22,628 bases of DNA from a virus: positions 1 to 22,628 of IMG/VR virus record IMGVR_UViG_3300020190_000374. One strand, given 5' to 3'. Numbering within the stretch: position 1 is the first letter of the stretch; the number at the start of each line of letters is the position of its first letter. Made by a program: the position numbers and the translations under genes. Positions 745 through 22,628 of the stretch are shown one piece after another. Under the pieces are notes generated by a model. It ran no database searches, was not told the DNA's origin, and was given only the letters and a program-made list of their open reading frames with translations.

Positions 745-1550
745 AAAAGATAATAAATGAATGTATAATAGTCCACAAAAAATTGGGTGATACAACTATT
801 ATGGCCAAAAATCGTGATAGAATGTATAAACCAGAACTGGAAATTATACATGAATTAATTAATGGTGTTGAAGTTGCATACCTACATGATGTTATAACTG
901 ATTGGAGTGAAGGTATGAACGAATTTGGGATTGGGGTAGTAAATACTGCTCTTTTGGTTGGGTTTGATGAAAAAGAAAAACAATTAGTTAAAAAAACAGG
1001 AAAAAAATCAAAAGATGGAGTAAAGATAAGAGAATCTTTAGGACAAAAAAATTTAAAAGATACAATAAAGACTGCTACAAAATATATGGGTGGTATTAAA
1101 GGTCATACGTTTGTATCTACTGAAGATAAATTTATATCAATAGAAACAACATCTAAACACAATCCTAAATTTACTATACACGATAATAAAAAAACAGTTG
1201 TAAGAACAAATCATGGACATGATTATTTGAATGCTGGATATACTGAAGGGCCTGATTATCTTTCATCAAAAGTAAGAAAATCATCTGCTGAAAGGATTAT
1301 TAACAGAACTAATAATCCTACAAATATTTTATCAAATATGAGAAAGGATTTATTTGACACAGAATCTAATCTTAATATGAGTAGAAAGACCGAAAAAATG
1401 TTTACATCATCACAATTACTTCTTAATCTATCCGAATTAAAGTTAGAACTAAATTACTATGGTGATAAAGTTGAAAAATTTCATGGCGTAAAAAATAATT
1501 TTCCAAAAGGATACCAACCAAAAATTAAAATAGAGGTTAAAAAAGTGTAA
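741..1550 (+). CDS. Ntn-type amide hydrolase/acyltransferase, C45/C59-like
   Basis: The 269 residues match the Ntn-hydrolase group that includes choloylglycine hydrolase and acyl-CoA:6-aminopenicillanate acyltransferase. Visible signature pieces are a candidate nucleophile C8, the KNRDR block at 23-27 (in place of the family GRNxD, with D26 18 residues after the cysteine), TDWSEGMNE at 53-61 followed by GIG, the RTNHGH block at 155-160, and SSAER at 181-185, where the family has its conserved arginine. Such enzymes cleave linear amide bonds after their N-terminal residues are removed to free the cysteine. Here seven residues (MKKIINE) would have to be removed. There is no signal peptide, so action is probably inside the host cell. 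The substrate is unknown. The start overlaps the phosphatase stop (ATGA) and the stop overlaps the next small gene. Confidence 0.75.
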   Translation: MKKIINECIIVHKKLGDTTIMAKNRDRMYKPELEIIHELINGVEVAYLHDVITDWSEGMNEFGIGVVNTALLVGFDEKEKQLVKKTGKKSKDGVKIRESLGQKNLKDTIKTATKYMGGIKGHTFVSTEDKFISIETTSKHNPKFTIHDNKKTVVRTNHGHDYLNAGYTEGPDYLSSKVRKSSAERIINRTNNPTNILSNMRKDLFDTESNLNMSRKTEKMFTSSQLLLNLSELKLELNYYGDKVEKFHGVKNNFPKGYQPKIKIEVKKV

Positions 1551-1648
1551 TGACTAATAGGCAAAGAGCAAAAAAAAATAGAAAAAGAATTCAAAAACAA
1601 ACAATAAAATTCCAACAAAAAAAAGGGATTTATAAAAAGAAAACTTAA
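1550..1648 (+). CDS. tiny basic protein, 32 aa
   Basis: A short frame opens at the TAATG junction after the amide hydrolase and encodes 32 residues, of which about half are Lys or Arg and several are Gln. There are no acidic residues, cysteines or hydrophobic stretches. Such a peptide could bind nucleic acid or another acidic partner, but it has no recognisable family. Support for a real gene is the stop/start overlap, the same arrangement used by several surer genes in the window. The low complexity of A-rich DNA means a chance frame remains possible. Confidence 0.45.
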   Translation: MTNRQRAKKNRKRIQKQTIKFQQKKGIYKKKT

Positions 1649-1757
1649 TTTAATGGATTTTTACATTTAATCTTTTTAATTGAAATTTTGTTTTATTTGA
1701 ATAGTTAAAAGTAAAATTAAAAAAATATAAAACAATTAAATACTAAAGGGGGGCGAT

Positions 1758-2117
1758 ATAAAAAAGTTTCTAATTTTCATACTACTTCTCTTCCTTTCTT
1801 GCAAAAAGGAAATTGAACCATTATATCCTCATAAGGGAAAGTTAGTTCTTAAGGGAATCTGCCTTAACTATACCATTCAATTTATTGGTGGTGAACCCAT
1901 AAGGTTAGATAAATGGGAAAGGGAATGGATAAATCCTATTGATGGGAAGAGATGGGAGAGGGTTTTCCGCTTAGAAAATGAGTGTGCATTTCCCGAAAGT
2001 TTAGAAGAGGGTGATGAGTTTTGGTTTCGAATTGTTGCACCCCAACCTACCTGCATTAAGTGTAAAGGGTACTCACCTACACCGAATTATGGAATACCAA
2101 TAGAAGTATTATATTAA
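1758..2117 (+). CDS. lipoprotein with atypical ATA start, host-like
   Basis: The frame 1740-2117 is open but contains no ATG, GTG or TTG before a textbook lipoprotein signal. From ATA at 1758 the product is 119 residues: two lysines, a hydrophobic core (FLIFILLLFL), and lipobox LFLSC with C15, followed by KKE as in many Bacteroidota lipoproteins. Four further cysteines follow, including a TCIKC CxxC pair near the C-terminus, and several Trp residues. A G-run (AAAGGGGGG, 1745-1753) sits just upstream of the ATA. Base use differs from its neighbours: about 39% GC over 1801-2100 against about 29% over 2221-2520, with AGG, GGG and CCC codons that neighbours avoid. It looks acquired, and may be a surface lipoprotein altering the infected cell (for example superinfection exclusion; inference). 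It could also be a gene that has lost its start. Confidence 0.65.
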   Translation: MKKFLIFILLLFLSCKKEIEPLYPHKGKLVLKGICLNYTIQFIGGEPIRLDKWEREWINPIDGKRWERVFRLENECAFPESLEEGDEFWFRIVAPQPTCIKCKGYSPTPNYGIPIEVLY

Positions 2118-2130
2118 ATAATAATATCTT

Positions 2131-2153
2131 ATCTCAATGAGGTTTTTTCTTTT
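2131..2153 (+). terminator. weak intrinsic terminator after the lipoprotein gene
   Basis: A short hairpin (ATCTC, loop AAT, GAGGT; five pairs including one G-T) runs straight into a T-rich tract (TTTTTTCTTTT). It lies between the lipoprotein stop and the promoter-like box ahead of the next gene. The stem is weak, so termination may be partial. Confidence 0.5.
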
Positions 2154-2156
2154 AGG

Positions 2157-2166
2157 ATATTTATAT
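2157..2166 (+). promoter_or_regulatory. candidate late promoter box ATATTTATAT
   Basis: Exact copy of a word that recurs ahead of other transcription-unit starts in the window (6088, 18154, 20132, near matches at 21241 and 12990). It follows a terminator and ends 20 bases before the ATG at 2187. It resembles the Bacteroidota -7 element (TAnnTTTG) with A for the final G. Confidence 0.5.
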
Positions 2167-5072: not shown

Positions 5073-6038
5073 ATGGCTAAACCAACTGATAATAGTGAAA
5101 TTTTTTTAGACCAATTAATTGGTTCTATACAAACACACTTACCTACAATTAAAGGTATATATGTCACTACATCTATGTATCCACCATTAATACCTGGACC
5201 AGGTATTGTATTTTGGAATGGTTATAGTATTCCGCCTACAAAACCAGGATCTCCATCAATAGAATCACCAACTACACAAGAAGTTAGTCAAGAAAGTTTT
5301 GAAGAATCAACGACTTTATCAACAGAGGAAGCAGCTGCAGCAGATTTTGCAACCGAAGCAGGATATGGAGGAACGGAAGCTTTAGCTATAGGCCTAACGG
5401 TAGGTAAACAAATTAGAGAAGGAAAATTATCTGTTTCAAATCTATCATCCGAAATCCCACAAAAAAAGAGAAGCTCTTCAGATACGAACCAACCAGAACC
5501 AGTATCGTCTGAACCTATAAGTGGGTGTGGTGATATAAAAAATTTACCAATTCCAAACGCTTTATTAGTAGAGGCTATGAAAAAATTTGGTATCATAACT
5601 CCAATACAAAGGGCACATTTTCTTGCTCAATGTGCACACGAAAGTGGTGGTTTTAAATGGGTAAGAGAATTTGCAAGTGGAGCCGCGTATGAGGGTCGAA
5701 AAGATTTAGGTAATACTGAACCTGGAGATGGTGTAAAGTTTAAGGGTAGAGGATATATACAATTAACTGGAAGAGCTAATTATACAAAATTTAAAGGTAG
5801 TATAAAAGATGATATTATAACTAATCCAATTTTGGTAGAGCAAACTTATGTTGCACAAAGTGCAACGTGGTTTTGGAAAACAAGAGATTTTAATTCAATA
5901 GCAGTAAATGATTCAGTTGAAACACTACAAAAGGTAACAAAAAGAGTAAATGGGGGTTATAATGGATATGAGGATAGAAGAAAATATTTTTGTGGATATT
6001 GGAAAAAACTACAAGAAAATCCAAATCTTTATACATAA
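5073..6038 (+). CDS. GH19 chitinase/lysozyme-type tail hydrolase
   Basis: 321 residues. The C-terminal half (~155-318) is a glycoside hydrolase family 19 domain of the phage-lysin type: AHFLAQCAHESGGF with catalytic E190, YEGRKDLGNTEPGDG (206-220, a second acidic candidate at E207), the hallmark KGRGYIQLTGRANY (224-237), and RVNGGYNG (291-298). The family cleaves the glycan chain of peptidoglycan. The N-terminal ~60 residues hold PPLIPGPG (37-44), echoing the motif of the upstream CHAP protein. Between lies a low-complexity Ser/Thr/Glu-rich linker (60-155). There is no signal peptide. The N-terminal anchor and place among baseplate genes argue for a virion-borne enzyme, but a lysis role cannot be excluded. 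It is the last gene before a clear terminator. Confidence 0.85.
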   Translation: MAKPTDNSEIFLDQLIGSIQTHLPTIKGIYVTTSMYPPLIPGPGIVFWNGYSIPPTKPGSPSIESPTTQEVSQESFEESTTLSTEEAAAADFATEAGYGGTEALAIGLTVGKQIREGKLSVSNLSSEIPQKKRSSSDTNQPEPVSSEPISGCGDIKNLPIPNALLVEAMKKFGIITPIQRAHFLAQCAHESGGFKWVREFASGAAYEGRKDLGNTEPGDGVKFKGRGYIQLTGRANYTKFKGSIKDDIITNPILVEQTYVAQSATWFWKTRDFNSIAVNDSVETLQKVTKRVNGGYNGYEDRRKYFCGYWKKLQENPNLYT

Positions 6039-7315: not shown

Positions 7316-9307
7316 ATGGCATTAAATAGTATAACAAAAAAAAGTAATCAAGGTAGGGATATTAAATATCTTAATAAAGATTTTGCATCTTTTAGACAAA
7401 ACCTTATTGAGTATGCAAAAACATATTTTTCAAAAACATATTCCGATTTTAACGAATCTTCTCCTGGTATGATGTTTATAGAAATGGCATCATATATAGG
7501 TGATGTTCTTTCATATTATGTAGATGATTCATTAAAAGAATCATTGATGTTATATGCAGAAGATAAAGAAAATGTAATTGCTCTTGCAAGTTATTTAGGA
7601 TATAAGCCTAAAGTAACTTCTCCTGCAGTTACTACCTTATCGGTATATCAATTAATTCCATCCAAAATTAATTCGACAGGTGCAAGTGGAGATGGAAGAT
7701 TTGAGCCAGATCCATCATACTATCTTCGTATTAAAGAAGGTATGTTAGTTTCTGGCGTAGAAGGTGTAAAATTTAGAACAACTGAACTTTTGGATTTTAA
7801 TGTTGATGAAAACAGAGAAATATCAGTTTATACGAGAGATACTAATGGTCCAGCCTTATATTTAGTTAAAAAATATGTGAATGCTATTTCAGCGGAAGTA
7901 AAATCTCAAACAATACAATTTTCATCACCAACATCATTTTCTAAAATAAATTTAGCAGATACAAATGTAATAGATGTTTATGATATAAGAGATAGTAATG
8001 GTAATAAATGGTACGAAGTTCCTTATTTAGCACAAACTGATTATGATTTATCTCAATTCAAAGATTCTGTACCTAATATTTTAAAATTAATTAAAACATC
8101 TCGTAGATTTGTAAAACAAATTAATTCAGATAATACCACATCTATTGTATTTGGTGGTGGAACCGCAACATCAGATGAAACTCTTATACCAAATTTTAAA
8201 AATGTTGGTTTAGGATTAAATTCTTCAATTAGTAGATTGGGTTCATCTTTTGACCCTGCGAACTTTTTGAAAACACAAACATATGGTCAAGCTCCATCTA
8301 ATACATCAATGACTGTTTCTTATTTAGTTGGTGGAGGTGTTCAATCAAATGTTCCTGCATCAGATTTAACAAAAATAGATAAAATTGAATTCGAAGAAGA
8401 TATAATAACATTTACAGCTGAAGAATTAAGATTGTATAATTCAATGAAGGCTTCAGTTGCAGTAGAAAATGAAGTACCTGCTACTGGAGGTAGGGGTGCT
8501 GAAACAATAGAAGAAATAAGAGAGAATTCACTAGCTAATTTTGGTTCTCAAAACAGAGCAGTGACAAGAAAGGATTATCAAGTTAGAGCACTTTCTCTTC
8601 CACCAAAATATGGTGGAATAGCAAAAGCATATTGTGCACCTGATGGGGAATTGGATAATAATTCACCGGCATCTTTATTAGCAAATCCTGATTCATTAGA
8701 TGAATTTACAGGATTAGTTACCAATTTAAAAAATAAAAATTTGACAGAACAACAAATAAAAGAAGAAATTCAAAAATTTTTGATTGGTAAAAAGAATAAT
8801 TTAGCTGAAAAAAATAATCCATTTGCAATAAATTTGTATGTTCTTTCTTATAATTCAAATAAAAATTTAACAAGTCTTAATAGGGCTGTAAAAGAAAATT
8901 TAAAAACGTATTTAAATGAGTATCGTTTACTAACTGATGGTGTAAACCTTTTAGATGGCTTTATAATTAATATAGGAGTAGATTTTGAAATAAGAGTATA
9001 TGGTGGATATAATAAGAGAGAAGTATTAACTAGATGTATTAGTGAATTAAAAGAATATTTTAGTATTGATAATTGGACATTTAATATGGCAATTAATATT
9101 TCGGAAGTTGAATTATTAATTGCGGGTGTAGAAGGAGTTCAATCAGTACCTAAATGCGAAATCGTAAATAAATGTTCTGGAAGTTATTCAAAACACTCTT
9201 ATAATATACAGGCCGCAACTAAAGGAAAAATGGTCTATCCTTCTTTAGATCCATCAGTATTTGAAATTAAGTTTCCAAATAGAGATATTAAGGGGAGGGC
9301 TATCTAA
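7316..9307 (+). CDS. 6: baseplate wedge protein, gp6-like (gpJ family)
   Basis: 663 residues, close to T4 gp6 (about 660). The N-terminus (NKDFASFRQNLIEYAKTYF, then SSPGMMFIEMASYIGDVLSYYVDD, about residues 20-75) is typical of gp6/Baseplate_J proteins. Further hallmarks are the RAVTRKDYQVRAL block near residue 415 and a C-terminal ISEVELLIAGVEGVQSV segment at about 595-610. In T4, gp6 dimers form the iris-like ring that joins wedges around the hub. Its place right after the gp25-like gene matches their physical partnership. The stop codon overlaps the next start (TAATG), and AGGGGAGGG at 9291-9299 inside this gene can serve as ribosome site for that gene. Confidence 0.9.
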   Translation: MALNSITKKSNQGRDIKYLNKDFASFRQNLIEYAKTYFSKTYSDFNESSPGMMFIEMASYIGDVLSYYVDDSLKESLMLYAEDKENVIALASYLGYKPKVTSPAVTTLSVYQLIPSKINSTGASGDGRFEPDPSYYLRIKEGMLVSGVEGVKFRTTELLDFNVDENREISVYTRDTNGPALYLVKKYVNAISAEVKSQTIQFSSPTSFSKINLADTNVIDVYDIRDSNGNKWYEVPYLAQTDYDLSQFKDSVPNILKLIKTSRRFVKQINSDNTTSIVFGGGTATSDETLIPNFKNVGLGLNSSISRLGSSFDPANFLKTQTYGQAPSNTSMTVSYLVGGGVQSNVPASDLTKIDKIEFEEDIITFTAEELRLYNSMKASVAVENEVPATGGRGAETIEEIRENSLANFGSQNRAVTRKDYQVRALSLPPKYGGIAKAYCAPDGELDNNSPASLLANPDSLDEFTGLVTNLKNKNLTEQQIKEEIQKFLIGKKNNLAEKNNPFAINLYVLSYNSNKNLTSLNRAVKENLKTYLNEYRLLTDGVNLLDGFIINIGVDFEIRVYGGYNKREVLTRCISELKEYFSIDNWTFNMAINISEVELLIAGVEGVQSVPKCEIVNKCSGSYSKHSYNIQAATKGKMVYPSLDPSVFEIKFPNRDIKGRAI

Positions 9308-10369: not shown

Positions 10370-11473
10370 ATGGCATTAGATAACGAATTTATATTATCTG
10401 AATTAATAGTTAGTGGCTCATCAGCATTAAGACAAACTAAAGATTCTAGTGGCAATATTGTAGTTAATACAAGAATTGATACTGATGGTGAATCATTTGG
10501 ATATGTTGAAAGACCTATATACAATGAGAAGCAAGTAAAAAAGGCAGTTGATACAATTGTAGATGAACTTATTGGGCCAAAACAAAAAGATACACCCGCT
10601 GTTGTTTTAAAAACTATATATGATGATTTAAGAGAACAATATAATGAAGCTCTTAAAACAATTAAGGATTTACAAAAAGAACTAAATGATGCATTACAAC
10701 AAATTGAAGCACTTAATATTGTAATAGATGATTTAAATGTAAAATTAGATTTAGAAAAATTATTACGAGCTAATGCTGAAACTGAAAGAGATGTTGCAAA
10801 TGAAAAGTATGTATCGACAGTATTAGATACTCAAACTGCATTTTCAAAAGGAATTAAAGAAGGAATTGAAAGAGTTTCTATTGAAGCACAAGTTAGTGGT
10901 TTACTTTCTGAAAAGGAAGCGTTTATTGAATTTACCAAAAATGCACAAATACAAATTACGAACGCAAATAACCAAATTATAAATTTGGGAAATCAGTTAA
11001 ATGATGCATTTGCTCAATTAGCAAAAGCACAGGGTGAAGCTATATCAGCACAAAATCAAGCGGCAGCCTCAAACGCACAAACACAAGTTGCTGCCGCATC
11101 AGCCAATAATAAGAAAAAAGGAACTATAATTTGTACAGAAATGTATAATCAAAATTTGATGCCTAAATTTATATTTGATGCTGATAAAAGGTTTGGTTAC
11201 CGTATGTATAAAAACAACAGAGAACTTTTAGAGGGTTATTGGATTTGGGCAACTCCTGTTGTGGAGTGGTTAAAACAAAATCCAAAAGGTTCAAAATTAT
11301 TTTATAACATAATTGTAAAACATTGGTCAGAACACATGGCATATAGTGTAGATGTATTACCAAAAGATAATTTATTTGGAAAAATAATTCACAATATAGG
11401 AATTAAGTTTACAAAATTAGTTTATTTATATTATAAGAATAGATTACAAAAACTAAATTACCAATGGCAATAA
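10370..11473 (+). CDS. coiled-coil virion protein with a conserved phage C-terminal domain
   Basis: 367 residues in three parts. The N-terminal ~80 residues are a beta/mixed head (EFILSELIVSGSSALRQTKD). Residues ~80-245 are a long coiled coil with heptad character (YDDLREQYNEALKTIKDLQ; LNIVIDDLNVKLDLEKL) ending in an Ala/Gln-rich stretch. The C-terminal ~120 residues (IICTEMYNQNLM, DADKRFGYRMYKNN, GYWIWATPVVEWL, KHWSEHMAY) resemble a domain I associate with many phage virion proteins; its role is unknown to me. The overall build suggests a fibrous, probably trimeric structural protein. It starts one base after the previous stop and overlaps the next gene by ten bases in another frame. Confidence 0.7.
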   Translation: MALDNEFILSELIVSGSSALRQTKDSSGNIVVNTRIDTDGESFGYVERPIYNEKQVKKAVDTIVDELIGPKQKDTPAVVLKTIYDDLREQYNEALKTIKDLQKELNDALQQIEALNIVIDDLNVKLDLEKLLRANAETERDVANEKYVSTVLDTQTAFSKGIKEGIERVSIEAQVSGLLSEKEAFIEFTKNAQIQITNANNQIINLGNQLNDAFAQLAKAQGEAISAQNQAAASNAQTQVAAASANNKKKGTIICTEMYNQNLMPKFIFDADKRFGYRMYKNNRELLEGYWIWATPVVEWLKQNPKGSKLFYNIIVKHWSEHMAYSVDVLPKDNLFGKIIHNIGIKFTKLVYLYYKNRLQKLNYQWQ

Positions 11474-12987
11474 AGGGATTCAAAGAAATAGTTGATAAAA
11501 AGGGATACAAAGTAAATTCCAAAGATAGAACCATTTTTGAAAGAGAAATTGGTAAAGCTTACTTTGGTATGGGTGTATCTGATATGATTGAATTTATACT
11601 TTATGATTTAAGTGATAATCAATTACCTCAAGGTGAAGAAGAATCATTAGTAAGATATATACCTTTGGATAATGAAAATATTAGAAAATATTTTCTTATT
11701 ACTAATAATAAACAAAACAAAAGACTAAATGGTGCAGATGAATATATCATAGATATTGAAAAATTGATAACTGAAGCAGGTTATTCAAATGGTATATTTA
11801 AAACACAAGTAACATTATTAAATAAAAGAGTTGGTTCTGAAAATATATCTAAAGATAAACTTTGGATACATGAAATATCACCATCGAGAACGGAGGTAAG
11901 AGTTCTTCCATTAGAAACAAAAGATGAAAAAGTTTATGAAGATTTACAAAATAGATTAGATATTATTCTAAATCAAAAACAATTTAGAGATGATACAATT
12001 TACTTTGTAAAATCTATGATTGAATCAATAAAAGTTGAAGAAGTTCTTAAATCTTTTTTATTATTAAATGGTAATGTAACAATTGGTGAAAATTATATAA
12101 AATTAATAAAAAAAGAATTTAAAATAAATGATTGGGAACTTTTTATTAATAGTATAAAAGAAAAATTAATAGAAGGTGCTCAATATTTCGTTGAGAATAG
12201 AAATTGGGATATATCATCTGTAAATTATGGTAAACCATTAAGTACCAAAATTGATTTAGAATTGAGTGTTGATAAAATAGTAGAAACATTAAATTCAATT
12301 TTAATTAAAATTATAGATAAATTTTTACCAAAACAAAGTATTCAAGATGAAAATATTTTAACTATTGATGAACAAAAAACTTTAGATGAAACAACCAAAA
12401 TTATAAAAACATTGACATCGAATACAAAATATGATACTGATAGTTTATCAAATAAACAACCAATAGTAAGAGGTTGTACTGATAAATCGGCATTAAATTA
12501 TAATCCATTAGCAGTGGAAGATGATGGTAGTTGTATATACTTACCAATACCACTAAAAAAAGAAACTCCGGATCCTAATCCAAAAAAGAAATTACCACCA
12601 CCTCCACAAATTAATGAGCCAAAAATTAAAGAGTATCAAACAATTACCAAAAAGTGGTATGGTTGTGCACCAATAACAATTGTAAATTTTCAAGACAAGT
12701 ATGGAAATACTAATCAAACTAAAATTTATGAAAATGCTAATCAATTATTAACCTATATAGACGGATCATTAAAATTTGATGGTGATATTAGAGAAACTCC
12801 TAAACAAAATACTAACTTACCACAAAAACCAAACAATGAAACACCTGAAATAGTGATTAGTGGAATTGGTGGTTCTGGCGGAGGAATGGGTAGTAGTGGT
12901 GAATTAATCACAAGAGAATACGGTGTTAATACTAATGTGGAAAGAGTTGTTGAAGGAAATTTAGTAGATAGACGAAACACCAAATAA
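11464..12987 (+). CDS. large virion protein with Cys-framed NYNP motif and Gly-rich tag
   Basis: 507 residues. The first ~315 residues are mixed alpha/beta and not recognised (FEREIGKAYFGMGVSDMIEF near the start). Residues 337-359 form a motif starting GCTD (C338), with NYNP at 345-348 and DDGSC ending at C357, a short disulfide-type repeat well known from Bacteroidota surface proteins. A Pro/Lys-rich linker follows (KKKLPPPPQ), then a small beta domain, then a Gly-rich spacer (GIGGSGGGMG) and a 32-residue tail (476-507) also found at the end of the next gene product. The layout suggests a baseplate-attached protein with exposed surface modules. It starts ten bases before the end of the upstream gene; the next gene follows after 15 bases. 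Confidence 0.7.
   Translation: MAIKGFKEIVDKKGYKVNSKDRTIFEREIGKAYFGMGVSDMIEFILYDLSDNQLPQGEEESLVRYIPLDNENIRKYFLITNNKQNKRLNGADEYIIDIEKLITEAGYSNGIFKTQVTLLNKRVGSENISKDKLWIHEISPSRTEVRVLPLETKDEKVYEDLQNRLDIILNQKQFRDDTIYFVKSMIESIKVEEVLKSFLLLNGNVTIGENYIKLIKKEFKINDWELFINSIKEKLIEGAQYFVENRNWDISSVNYGKPLSTKIDLELSVDKIVETLNSILIKIIDKFLPKQSIQDENILTIDEQKTLDETTKIIKTLTSNTKYDTDSLSNKQPIVRGCTDKSALNYNPLAVEDDGSCIYLPIPLKKETPDPNPKKKLPPPPQINEPKIKEYQTITKKWYGCAPITIVNFQDKYGNTNQTKIYENANQLLTYIDGSLKFDGDIRETPKQNTNLPQKPNNETPEIVISGIGGSGGGMGSSGELITREYGVNTNVERVVEGNLVDRRNTK
12889..12987 (+). repeat. 99-bp direct repeat, copy 1 (C-terminal tag)
   Basis: The last 99 bases of this gene, stop included, match 13402-13500 with seven mismatches (92/99, counted by hand). 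It encodes a 32-residue tail with 28 identical residues between copies, preceded in both genes by glycine-rich sequence. Confidence 0.9.
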
Positions 12988-12989
12988 AA

Positions 12990-12999
12990 ATATTTATTT
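12990..12999 (+). promoter_or_regulatory. possible promoter box ATATTTATTT (variant)
   Basis: Two mismatches from the recurring ATATTTATAT box, in the 15-base gap before the ATG at 13003. Only three bases separate it from the start codon, so a transcript starting here would be nearly or fully leaderless. It may be chance. Confidence 0.25.
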
Positions 13000-13002
13000 T
13001 AA

Positions 13003-13500
13003 ATGGCACAATATCAATTTAATTCAGAACTTTTAAATTTACCATCAAATGATACAAATTCTTTTGATCAAAGTGGTGCTGGTGTAATTATTGGCGGTGG
13101 AGTGGGTGCTTCAACTCCAATACCTATGCCAACGTGTAGAACTATTTCTTTTAATTTAAATTCATCACCAGCTGGTGCAAGTATTTTTGTTGATGAAATA
13201 GATACAAAATTTACTACACCGCATACTTTACAATTTAAAGAAACTGAATTACTAACACCAAAAGTAATAACTGTTAAAACACCTAATAGAACATCAAATG
13301 AAAATTACGTTATTTCAGCTGAATTAGTAGAACAAATTTTTGGTGGTACAGGTGGTAGTGGCGATGGTGCAGGAGGTAGTGGCGGTGGAGGTGGAGGAAT
13401 AGGTAGTAGTGGTGAATTAATCACAAGAGAATTTAATGTTAATACTAATGTGGAAAGAGTTGTTGACGGAAATTTAGTAGATAGACGAAATATCAAATAA
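13003..13500 (+). CDS. PEGA-like small virion protein with Gly-rich C-terminal tag
   Basis: 165 residues. Residues ~45-95 resemble a PEGA-type surface domain: CRTISFNLNSSPAGASIFVDE, with the SPAGA turn and IFVDE strand, then TTPHTLQF and an ITVKTPN strand. PEGA domains are small beta folds common in cell-surface proteins. A long glycine-rich spacer follows (GGTGGSGDGAGGSGGGGGG) and then the 32-residue tail (134-165) shared with the preceding gene product. The N-terminus MAQY is also shared with the next protein. It looks like a minor tail-tip or adhesin protein plugged into the same site as its neighbour through the common tail. PEGA resemblance is by eye. Confidence 0.65.
   Translation: MAQYQFNSELLNLPSNDTNSFDQSGAGVIIGGGVGASTPIPMPTCRTISFNLNSSPAGASIFVDEIDTKFTTPHTLQFKETELLTPKVITVKTPNRTSNENYVISAELVEQIFGGTGGSGDGAGGSGGGGGGIGSSGELITREFNVNTNVERVVDGNLVDRRNIK
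13402..13500 (+). repeat. 99-bp direct repeat, copy 2 (C-terminal tag)
   Basis: Second copy of the repeat at 12889-12987. The seven differences are scattered (two in TAC/TTT, two in GGT/AAT, one GAA/GAC, two near the end) and give four amino-acid changes. Confidence 0.9.
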
Positions 13501-21672: not shown

Positions 21673-22248
21673 TTGGCTCTACTTATTAATCGTGCTAAAA
21701 AGTGGGCATACATACATATTCCTAAAACAGGTGGCACATCAATATCATCCTTATTATTAAAAATACCCAATACTGAAATTGTAAATTCTCATGGTTCTTT
21801 GAATGAATTAAAAGAAGTAGATGGTTATTTTATTTTTTCTTTTGTAAGAAACCCTTTTACACGATTGGCTTCTTGGTATGAACACTACAAAAAAAATAAC
21901 AATTATACTCAATCATTTTTGTATTTTATACAACAAATAAATCCATTAGATTTTGTTTTTTATTCACAGGAGTATTTTTTAAAACATGGAGAAACAAAAG
22001 AAAAAAAAGTTTCTTTTATTGGAAAATACGAAAATTTTGAAAATGATTTAAGATATGTATTTAAAATAATTGGAGAAAATTTAGAAAAAATACCAAAATT
22101 AAATACAAACAAATATATTGAAAAACATCCTAATTTAAATACAGATAAATTATATAAAGGATATTTCAAAAATAATTATATAAAAGATTGGACAATAAAA
22201 AAATACAAAAACGATTTTTTAATTTTTGGTTATGATTTGGAAATATAA
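21673..22248 (+). CDS. sulfotransferase-family protein
   Basis: 191 residues with both PAPS-binding signatures of the sulfotransferase superfamily. The 5'-phosphosulfate loop is IHIPKTGGTS at 14-23, and the 3'-phosphate block is FVRNPFTRLASWY at 57-69. The first motif follows a short strand (KWAYIHIP), as in this fold. The family moves a sulfuryl group from PAPS to hydroxyl groups of sugars or other acceptors; the acceptor here is unknown. At 191 residues it is short for the family. No ATG is available: the frame is closed upstream by TAA at 21652-21654, so TTG at 21673 is the likely start, ten bases after the previous stop. Its tail overlaps the next gene by 17 bases. Possible roles are changing host surface sugars or decorating phage parts (inference). 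Confidence 0.8.
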   Translation: MALLINRAKKWAYIHIPKTGGTSISSLLLKIPNTEIVNSHGSLNELKEVDGYFIFSFVRNPFTRLASWYEHYKKNNNYTQSFLYFIQQINPLDFVFYSQEYFLKHGETKEKKVSFIGKYENFENDLRYVFKIIGENLEKIPKLNTNKYIEKHPNLNTDKLYKGYFKNNYIKDWTIKKYKNDFLIFGYDLEI

Positions 22249-22628
22249 AGAAAAAGAGATATTATCTTTAGATGATATGCCAGAAGAAACTTATGGATTT
22301 ATTTACAAAATAAGTAATAAAATCACTAGTCAATATTATATAGGAAAAAAACAAGTTGTTTCTTTTAGAAAAAAGAACTTTAGTAAAAAGAAACTATCTA
22401 CTATAACTGATAAAAGGGTTAAGAAGTATGAAATGGTTTCAAAAGAATCTGATTGGAAAACATATCGCTCATCAAATTCAGTTGTAAAAAATTGGAATGA
22501 GAATGAAATTCAATTGGAAATTTTACGTTTTTGTAAATCAAAAAAATCTCTTACCTATTACGAATTGCATGAACAATTCTATTATAATGTTCTTGCAGAT
22601 ACAAATTCACTTAACGATAACCTTATTG
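22232..22628 (+). CDS. GIY-YIG nuclease-family protein (3' end missing)
   Basis: The frame runs from ATG 22232 off the window end (132 residues seen). The GIY-YIG core appears as GFIYKISNK (22-30) followed by YYIGKK (35-40), with G-F-I-Y replacing the first GIY. Later features match phage SegE-like members: KESDWKTYRSSNSVVKNW, an EIQLEILRFCKSK strand-helix, and TYYELHEQF, whose Glu is the likely metal-binding catalytic residue. Such proteins are free-standing endonucleases, often homing enzymes of T4-like phages, or repair-type nucleases. The start overlaps the sulfotransferase end by 17 bases. The start could also be the in-frame ATG at 22277, just before the core. Confidence 0.75.
   Translation, partial: MIWKYKEKEILSLDDMPEETYGFIYKISNKITSQYYIGKKQVVSFRKKNFSKKKLSTITDKRVKKYEMVSKESDWKTYRSSNSVVKNWNENEIQLEILRFCKSKKSLTYYELHEQFYYNVLADTNSLNDNLI

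Follow-up and report, generated by a model that had tools for sequence, protein, structure and literature searches.

A Bacteroidota-like lipoprotein gene with no standard start codon in a marine phage: recent capture and probable silencing

When a phage carries an open frame with a complete lipoprotein signal and an ATA where the start codon should stand, is the gene still expressed, or was it captured from a host and then silenced? The question is raised by a locus in a 22,628-base virus record from a marine phage (IMGVR_UViG_3300020190_000374), the whole of which was analysed and is referred to here as the window. The features of the locus are collected in Table 1.

The open frame and its start region

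The frame at 1758-2117 encodes the protein IKKFLIFILLLFLSCKKEIEPLYPHKGKLVLKGICLNYTIQFIGGEPIRLDKWEREWINPIDGKRWERVFRLENECAFPESLEEGDEFWFRIVAPQPTCIKCKGYSPTPNYGIPIEVLY, whose lipoprotein signal reads KKFLIFILLLFLSC/KKE. It opens directly 3' of the TAA at 1737-1739, and between that stop and the lipobox no ATG, GTG or TTG was found in the lipoprotein frame; the only in-frame candidate initiators are ATA 1740, ATA 1758, ATT 1773 and ATA 1779. Elsewhere in the window, genes begin with ATG and rarely with GTG or TTG. The first-pass annotation had described a frame with a lipobox, only ATA at the expected start (1758-1760) and a G-rich run just upstream, and each of these observations holds: the run is GGGGGG at 1748-1753, the longest run of G or C in the window. 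A start hidden in a hairpin was considered and dropped, as RNA folding of the start region was no better than that of shuffled sequences.

The lipoprotein insert is known from two assembled contigs only, the window and the 37-kb contig IMGVR_UViG_3300020183_004756 (hereafter G001), which overlap by 19.4 kb. Six substitutions separate the contigs across this overlap, two of them at the contig end, together with an indel of 36 bases at 8030 and two single-base indels, the only ones of their kind in the 19.4 kb. G001 has one more G in the G-run and one T fewer at 1767, so that both single-base indels lie in the inserted stretch, in the start region of the lipoprotein. The first-pass annotation had proposed comparing the ATA position in related phages; G001 likewise has ATA and no ATG, and all other bases of the gene are identical. 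Read from ATA 1758, the G001 copy gives IKKF followed by a stop, and initiation at AUA 1758 is therefore not a conserved property. The added G and the missing T cancel, so that a frame beginning at ATA 1740 is uninterrupted in either contig.

Table 1. Features of the lipoprotein locus and its flanks, in window coordinates
Position	Strand	Feature	Basis
1550..1648	+	Small conserved phage ORF, 32 aa; borders the insert on its left; in relatives it stands directly 5' of the terminator	
1649..1747	+	AT-rich leader (11% GC) within the inserted stretch; among viral contigs seen only in G001	Composition fit, exact 24-mer
1748..1753	+	G-run, 6 G in window and 7 G in G001; left boundary of the segment with host-like composition	
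1758..2117	+	Lipoprotein gene of 119 codons and a stop, with ATA where the start is expected; lipobox FLSC/KKE	Bacteroidota chromosomal lipoprotein family
1766..1770	+	GTTTC in window, GTTC in G001 (1-base deletion, signal-peptide region of the G001 copy)	
2126..2148	+	Intrinsic terminator, weakened; probably left over from the conserved phage terminator, which in relatives reads AACCTCAC..GTGAGGTTTTTT	
2158..2165	+	TATTTATA, motif resembling a late promoter; relatives conserve it 5' of gene 2187	

Host family, composition and insertion site

A search of the protein against Bacteroidota genomes, as the first-pass annotation had advised, recovered homologues in the chromosomes of Flavobacteriaceae and other Bacteroidota. 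A six-frame whole-genome search gave one match in Flavobacteriaceae bacterium LSUCC0859. Homologues occur in 5 of 12 genomes of its genus, in five of the seven genomes of the small-genome genus of G063, in 11 of the 397 genomes from the family of G004 and LSUCC0859, and in 7 of 395 genomes of the same phylum, with best per-genome E values down to 1e-24. A scan of genome contigs with the single sequence, which needs near-exact peptides, had missed this family, which the six-frame Flavobacteriaceae search recovered. The phage and plasmid collections, Pfam, NCBIfam, PHROGs and PDB gave no convincing match to the lipoprotein (and no model of the family was found in Pfam or NCBIfam), exact and protein scans of IMG/VR for further copies returned G001 only, and Rfam had no match in the window. 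The AlphaFold single-sequence model of the lipoprotein (mean pLDDT 45) was too poor to use.

This un-named Bacteroidota family is marked by the motifs GKL.LKGICMNYVIEV ... CDFP..IEEGD.F.F ... CAVC.AYSPTP. The phage copy is homologous to it across the whole mature domain, carries an N-terminal signal peptide with lipobox, is close in length to the single-domain members, and keeps 15 of the 15 invariant columns, both CxxC cysteines included. It differs from the family in its phage rather than chromosomal location, in the absence of a cysteine that many members have near the C terminus, and in its start: in the host homologues examined the signal peptide always begins with ATG, whereas the window and G001 have ATA. 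No G-run was found 5' of the gene in the host copies examined. Since the standard start is missing, we class the phage copy as a probable pseudogene within the Bacteroidota GICxNY/CxxC lipoprotein family and not as a working member. In the tree it groups with G785 and G783, both from the genus of G063, with support 90/86; its identity to the nearest relatives, small-genome Flavobacteriaceae, is 45-46% (46% to L231), which places the true donor outside the sample. In the genus of G063 the family gene stands directly behind a gene that by eye is topoisomerase subunit A-like, and in G037 and G263 the protein has a further domain ahead of the family domain, identified as Pfam DUF6174 in G037, the one of the two that was tested.

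The gene has a GC content of 36.4%, whereas the window averages 28.6%; the earlier estimate of about 39% versus 29% was too high in its figure for the gene. As 3.2% of all 357-base stretches in the window reach this GC, the GC content would by itself be weak evidence. What decides for a foreign composition is codon usage, which is unlike that of the phage, as had been noted: GC3 is 0.311, compared with 0.079-0.168 in 20 other genes, and the z of the codon log-likelihood is -8.7, compared with -1.95 to +3.9. A three-segment GC fit over 1649-2186 delimits a host-like segment at 1748-2106 between flanks of 11-13% GC, with its left edge at 1739-1749 (within two log units), coincident with the G-run. 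The part that looks host-derived is almost the bare gene, and the difference between coding and non-coding DNA may account for some of this contrast.

The insertion site was compared with 80 related viral loci, found using the next gene (2187), which itself has distant matches in Flavobacterium phage immuto, at 42% over 72 residues. In nearly all relatives examined, gene 2187 is preceded by the terminator AACCTCACTTCGGTGAGGTTTTTT and then the TATTTATA motif. Four loci of the same phage group (L007, L038, L058 and L060) have an empty site from which the whole stretch of about 480 bp is absent, their matches stopping at 1648 and restarting at 2136-2138; L007 is 86% identical to the window up to 1648 and 81% from 2138 on, with 18 bases between. 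The insert is therefore the derived state. In relatives with the empty site a strong terminator directly follows the 32-codon ORF, and the stem in the window has a free energy of -3.0 kcal/mol compared with -8.2 to -13.6 in ten relatives. Its right arm and T-run survive and its stem is weak, which indicates insertion beside or inside the terminator. The first-pass annotation had given the gene a weak terminator of its own; it is weak, but more likely what is left of the conserved phage terminator. As in phage morons, an extra gene of foreign composition is missing at the same site in close relatives. Morons also have a promoter and terminator of their own; here the TATTTATA motif, the one promoter motif sought, does not occur within 1649-1757, and the terminator behind the gene is the weakened phage one. 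Recent host origin, as proposed in the first pass, is upheld by the host-chromosome homologues with none in phages except G001, by the empty sites and by the unadapted codons.

Several other features of the window may be recorded. TATTTATA motifs lie just 5' of gene starts at 2158, 6089, 18155, 20133 and 21242 and resemble T4-type late promoters. Shortly before the insertion site are two accessory genes, a PAP2-like phosphatase (94-744; weak, below the Pfam cutoff) and, by eye, an NRDE/Ntn-hydrolase-like protein (741-1550). Gene 5073-6038 encodes an endolysin (PHROG endolysin, E 4e-45) that carries a domain of the GH19 chitinase type. The genes at 11464-12987 and 13003-13500 share near-identical tails, GIGSSGELITRE(Y/F).VNTNVERVV(E/D)GNLVDRRN.K (12800-13000 and 13380-13500), probably a partial duplication. 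A sulfotransferase-like protein (21673-22248; Pfam Sulfotransfer_2, E 2e-14) follows the phage tail genes, and the frame at the window end (22226-22628) looks by eye like a GIY-YIG homing endonuclease.

Silencing weighed against expression

We consider it probable, though well short of certain, that this is a recently acquired gene that has been silenced and is beginning to decay. A small lipoprotein gene would have been taken from a host among the Bacteroidota, one most similar to small-genome Flavobacteriaceae, and inserted between the accessory operon and the terminator that closes it. The start codon would have been lost first and small indels tolerated afterwards, an order that we infer, and capture, start loss and first indels would all be so recent that codons and residues are still those of the host. 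The first-pass annotation had left a choice between translation from AUA and silencing by start loss; G001, which keeps the ATA with a one-base deletion behind it, tips the balance towards silencing and away from translation at AUA 1758. The overlap contains 868 non-coding bases with the insert counted as non-coding, 538 of them in 1649-2186, so two free indels there are unremarkable if the gene is unconstrained, and it is mildly surprising that they fall within 20 bases of each other. Decay, if real, must be very recent, since all 119 codons still read without a break and none of the invariant residues has been lost. Against silencing, the two indels cancel and leave the ATA 1740 frame open in both copies, which is the one escape for the reading in which the gene is expressed.

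Low-level expression from a non-AUG codon is possible but unlikely; the codon would be AUA 1758, aided by the G-rich run that resembles a Shine-Dalgarno sequence, or AUA 1740, which lies 5' of the run. The intact frame, signal peptide and family residues fit it, as do the cancelling indels and the position of AAAGGGGGG, which ends 4 nt upstream of 1758. AUA is, however, a poor initiator codon, the other genes of the window do without it, host genes have no G-rich run before them, and G001 meets its stop four codons after AUA 1758. That the phage retains the lipoprotein behind an impaired AUA start (1740 or 1758) as a trace surface protein, with the cancelling indels of G001 selected to hold the frame, strikes us as decidedly doubtful. 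It is also rather improbable that the true phage has a normal start and that both assemblies have a faulty consensus over 1748-1767, or one that conceals a mixed population. The contigs do differ by two one-base indels at exactly this place and nowhere else in the overlap, and at 8030, within the baseplate-wedge gene 7316-9307, the window is without 36 bases (12 codons) that G001 and L007 keep; this is either a real deletion or an assembly fault, so that local consensus errors in the window assembly are possible. Nevertheless, both contigs agree on ATA and on every other base of the gene, and runs of six G or three T are short for a fault of assembly. A G-run that switches a surface lipoprotein on and off by slippage would agree with the six and seven G of the two copies, but the run is short and no upstream frame that a length change could join has an ATG, GTG or TTG; phase variation was rejected on the latter ground and is hardly credible.

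Silencing after a recent capture thus remains the preferred explanation, and under it an early stage of host-to-phage transfer seems to have been caught, with insertion, start loss and first indels preceding codon adaptation or frame decay. As far as the collections searched show, this is the first phage copy of an unstudied Bacteroidota lipoprotein family. The case is interesting in detail and ordinary in kind.

Comparison with known lipoprotein systems

A superinfection-exclusion lipoprotein is known elsewhere, namely Ltp of Streptococcus phage TP-J34 (PMC3952083). Like phage morons and Ltp, the present gene is a lone lipoprotein gene of foreign composition between phage transcription units; unlike Ltp, it has no standard start, and no lysogeny genes were noticed in the fragment. 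Nothing here ties the family to superinfection exclusion or links its sequence to Ltp. If it was ever expressed, the product would probably be an outer-membrane lipoprotein during infection, perhaps on the host cell surface, a location suggested by the KKEIE that follows the anchoring cysteine. The Bacteroidetes lipoprotein export signal, K-(D/E)2 or, in MucG, KKEVEEE, was defined in Capnocytophaga (PMC5080379). Checked against the surface-lipoprotein form X-K-(D/E)2-3, the phage copy reads C-K-K-E-I-E; this resembles the KKEVE of MucG (PMC5080379), differs from the Capnocytophaga signal in having only two acidic residues, which are not adjacent, and, if translated, may point to the cell surface.
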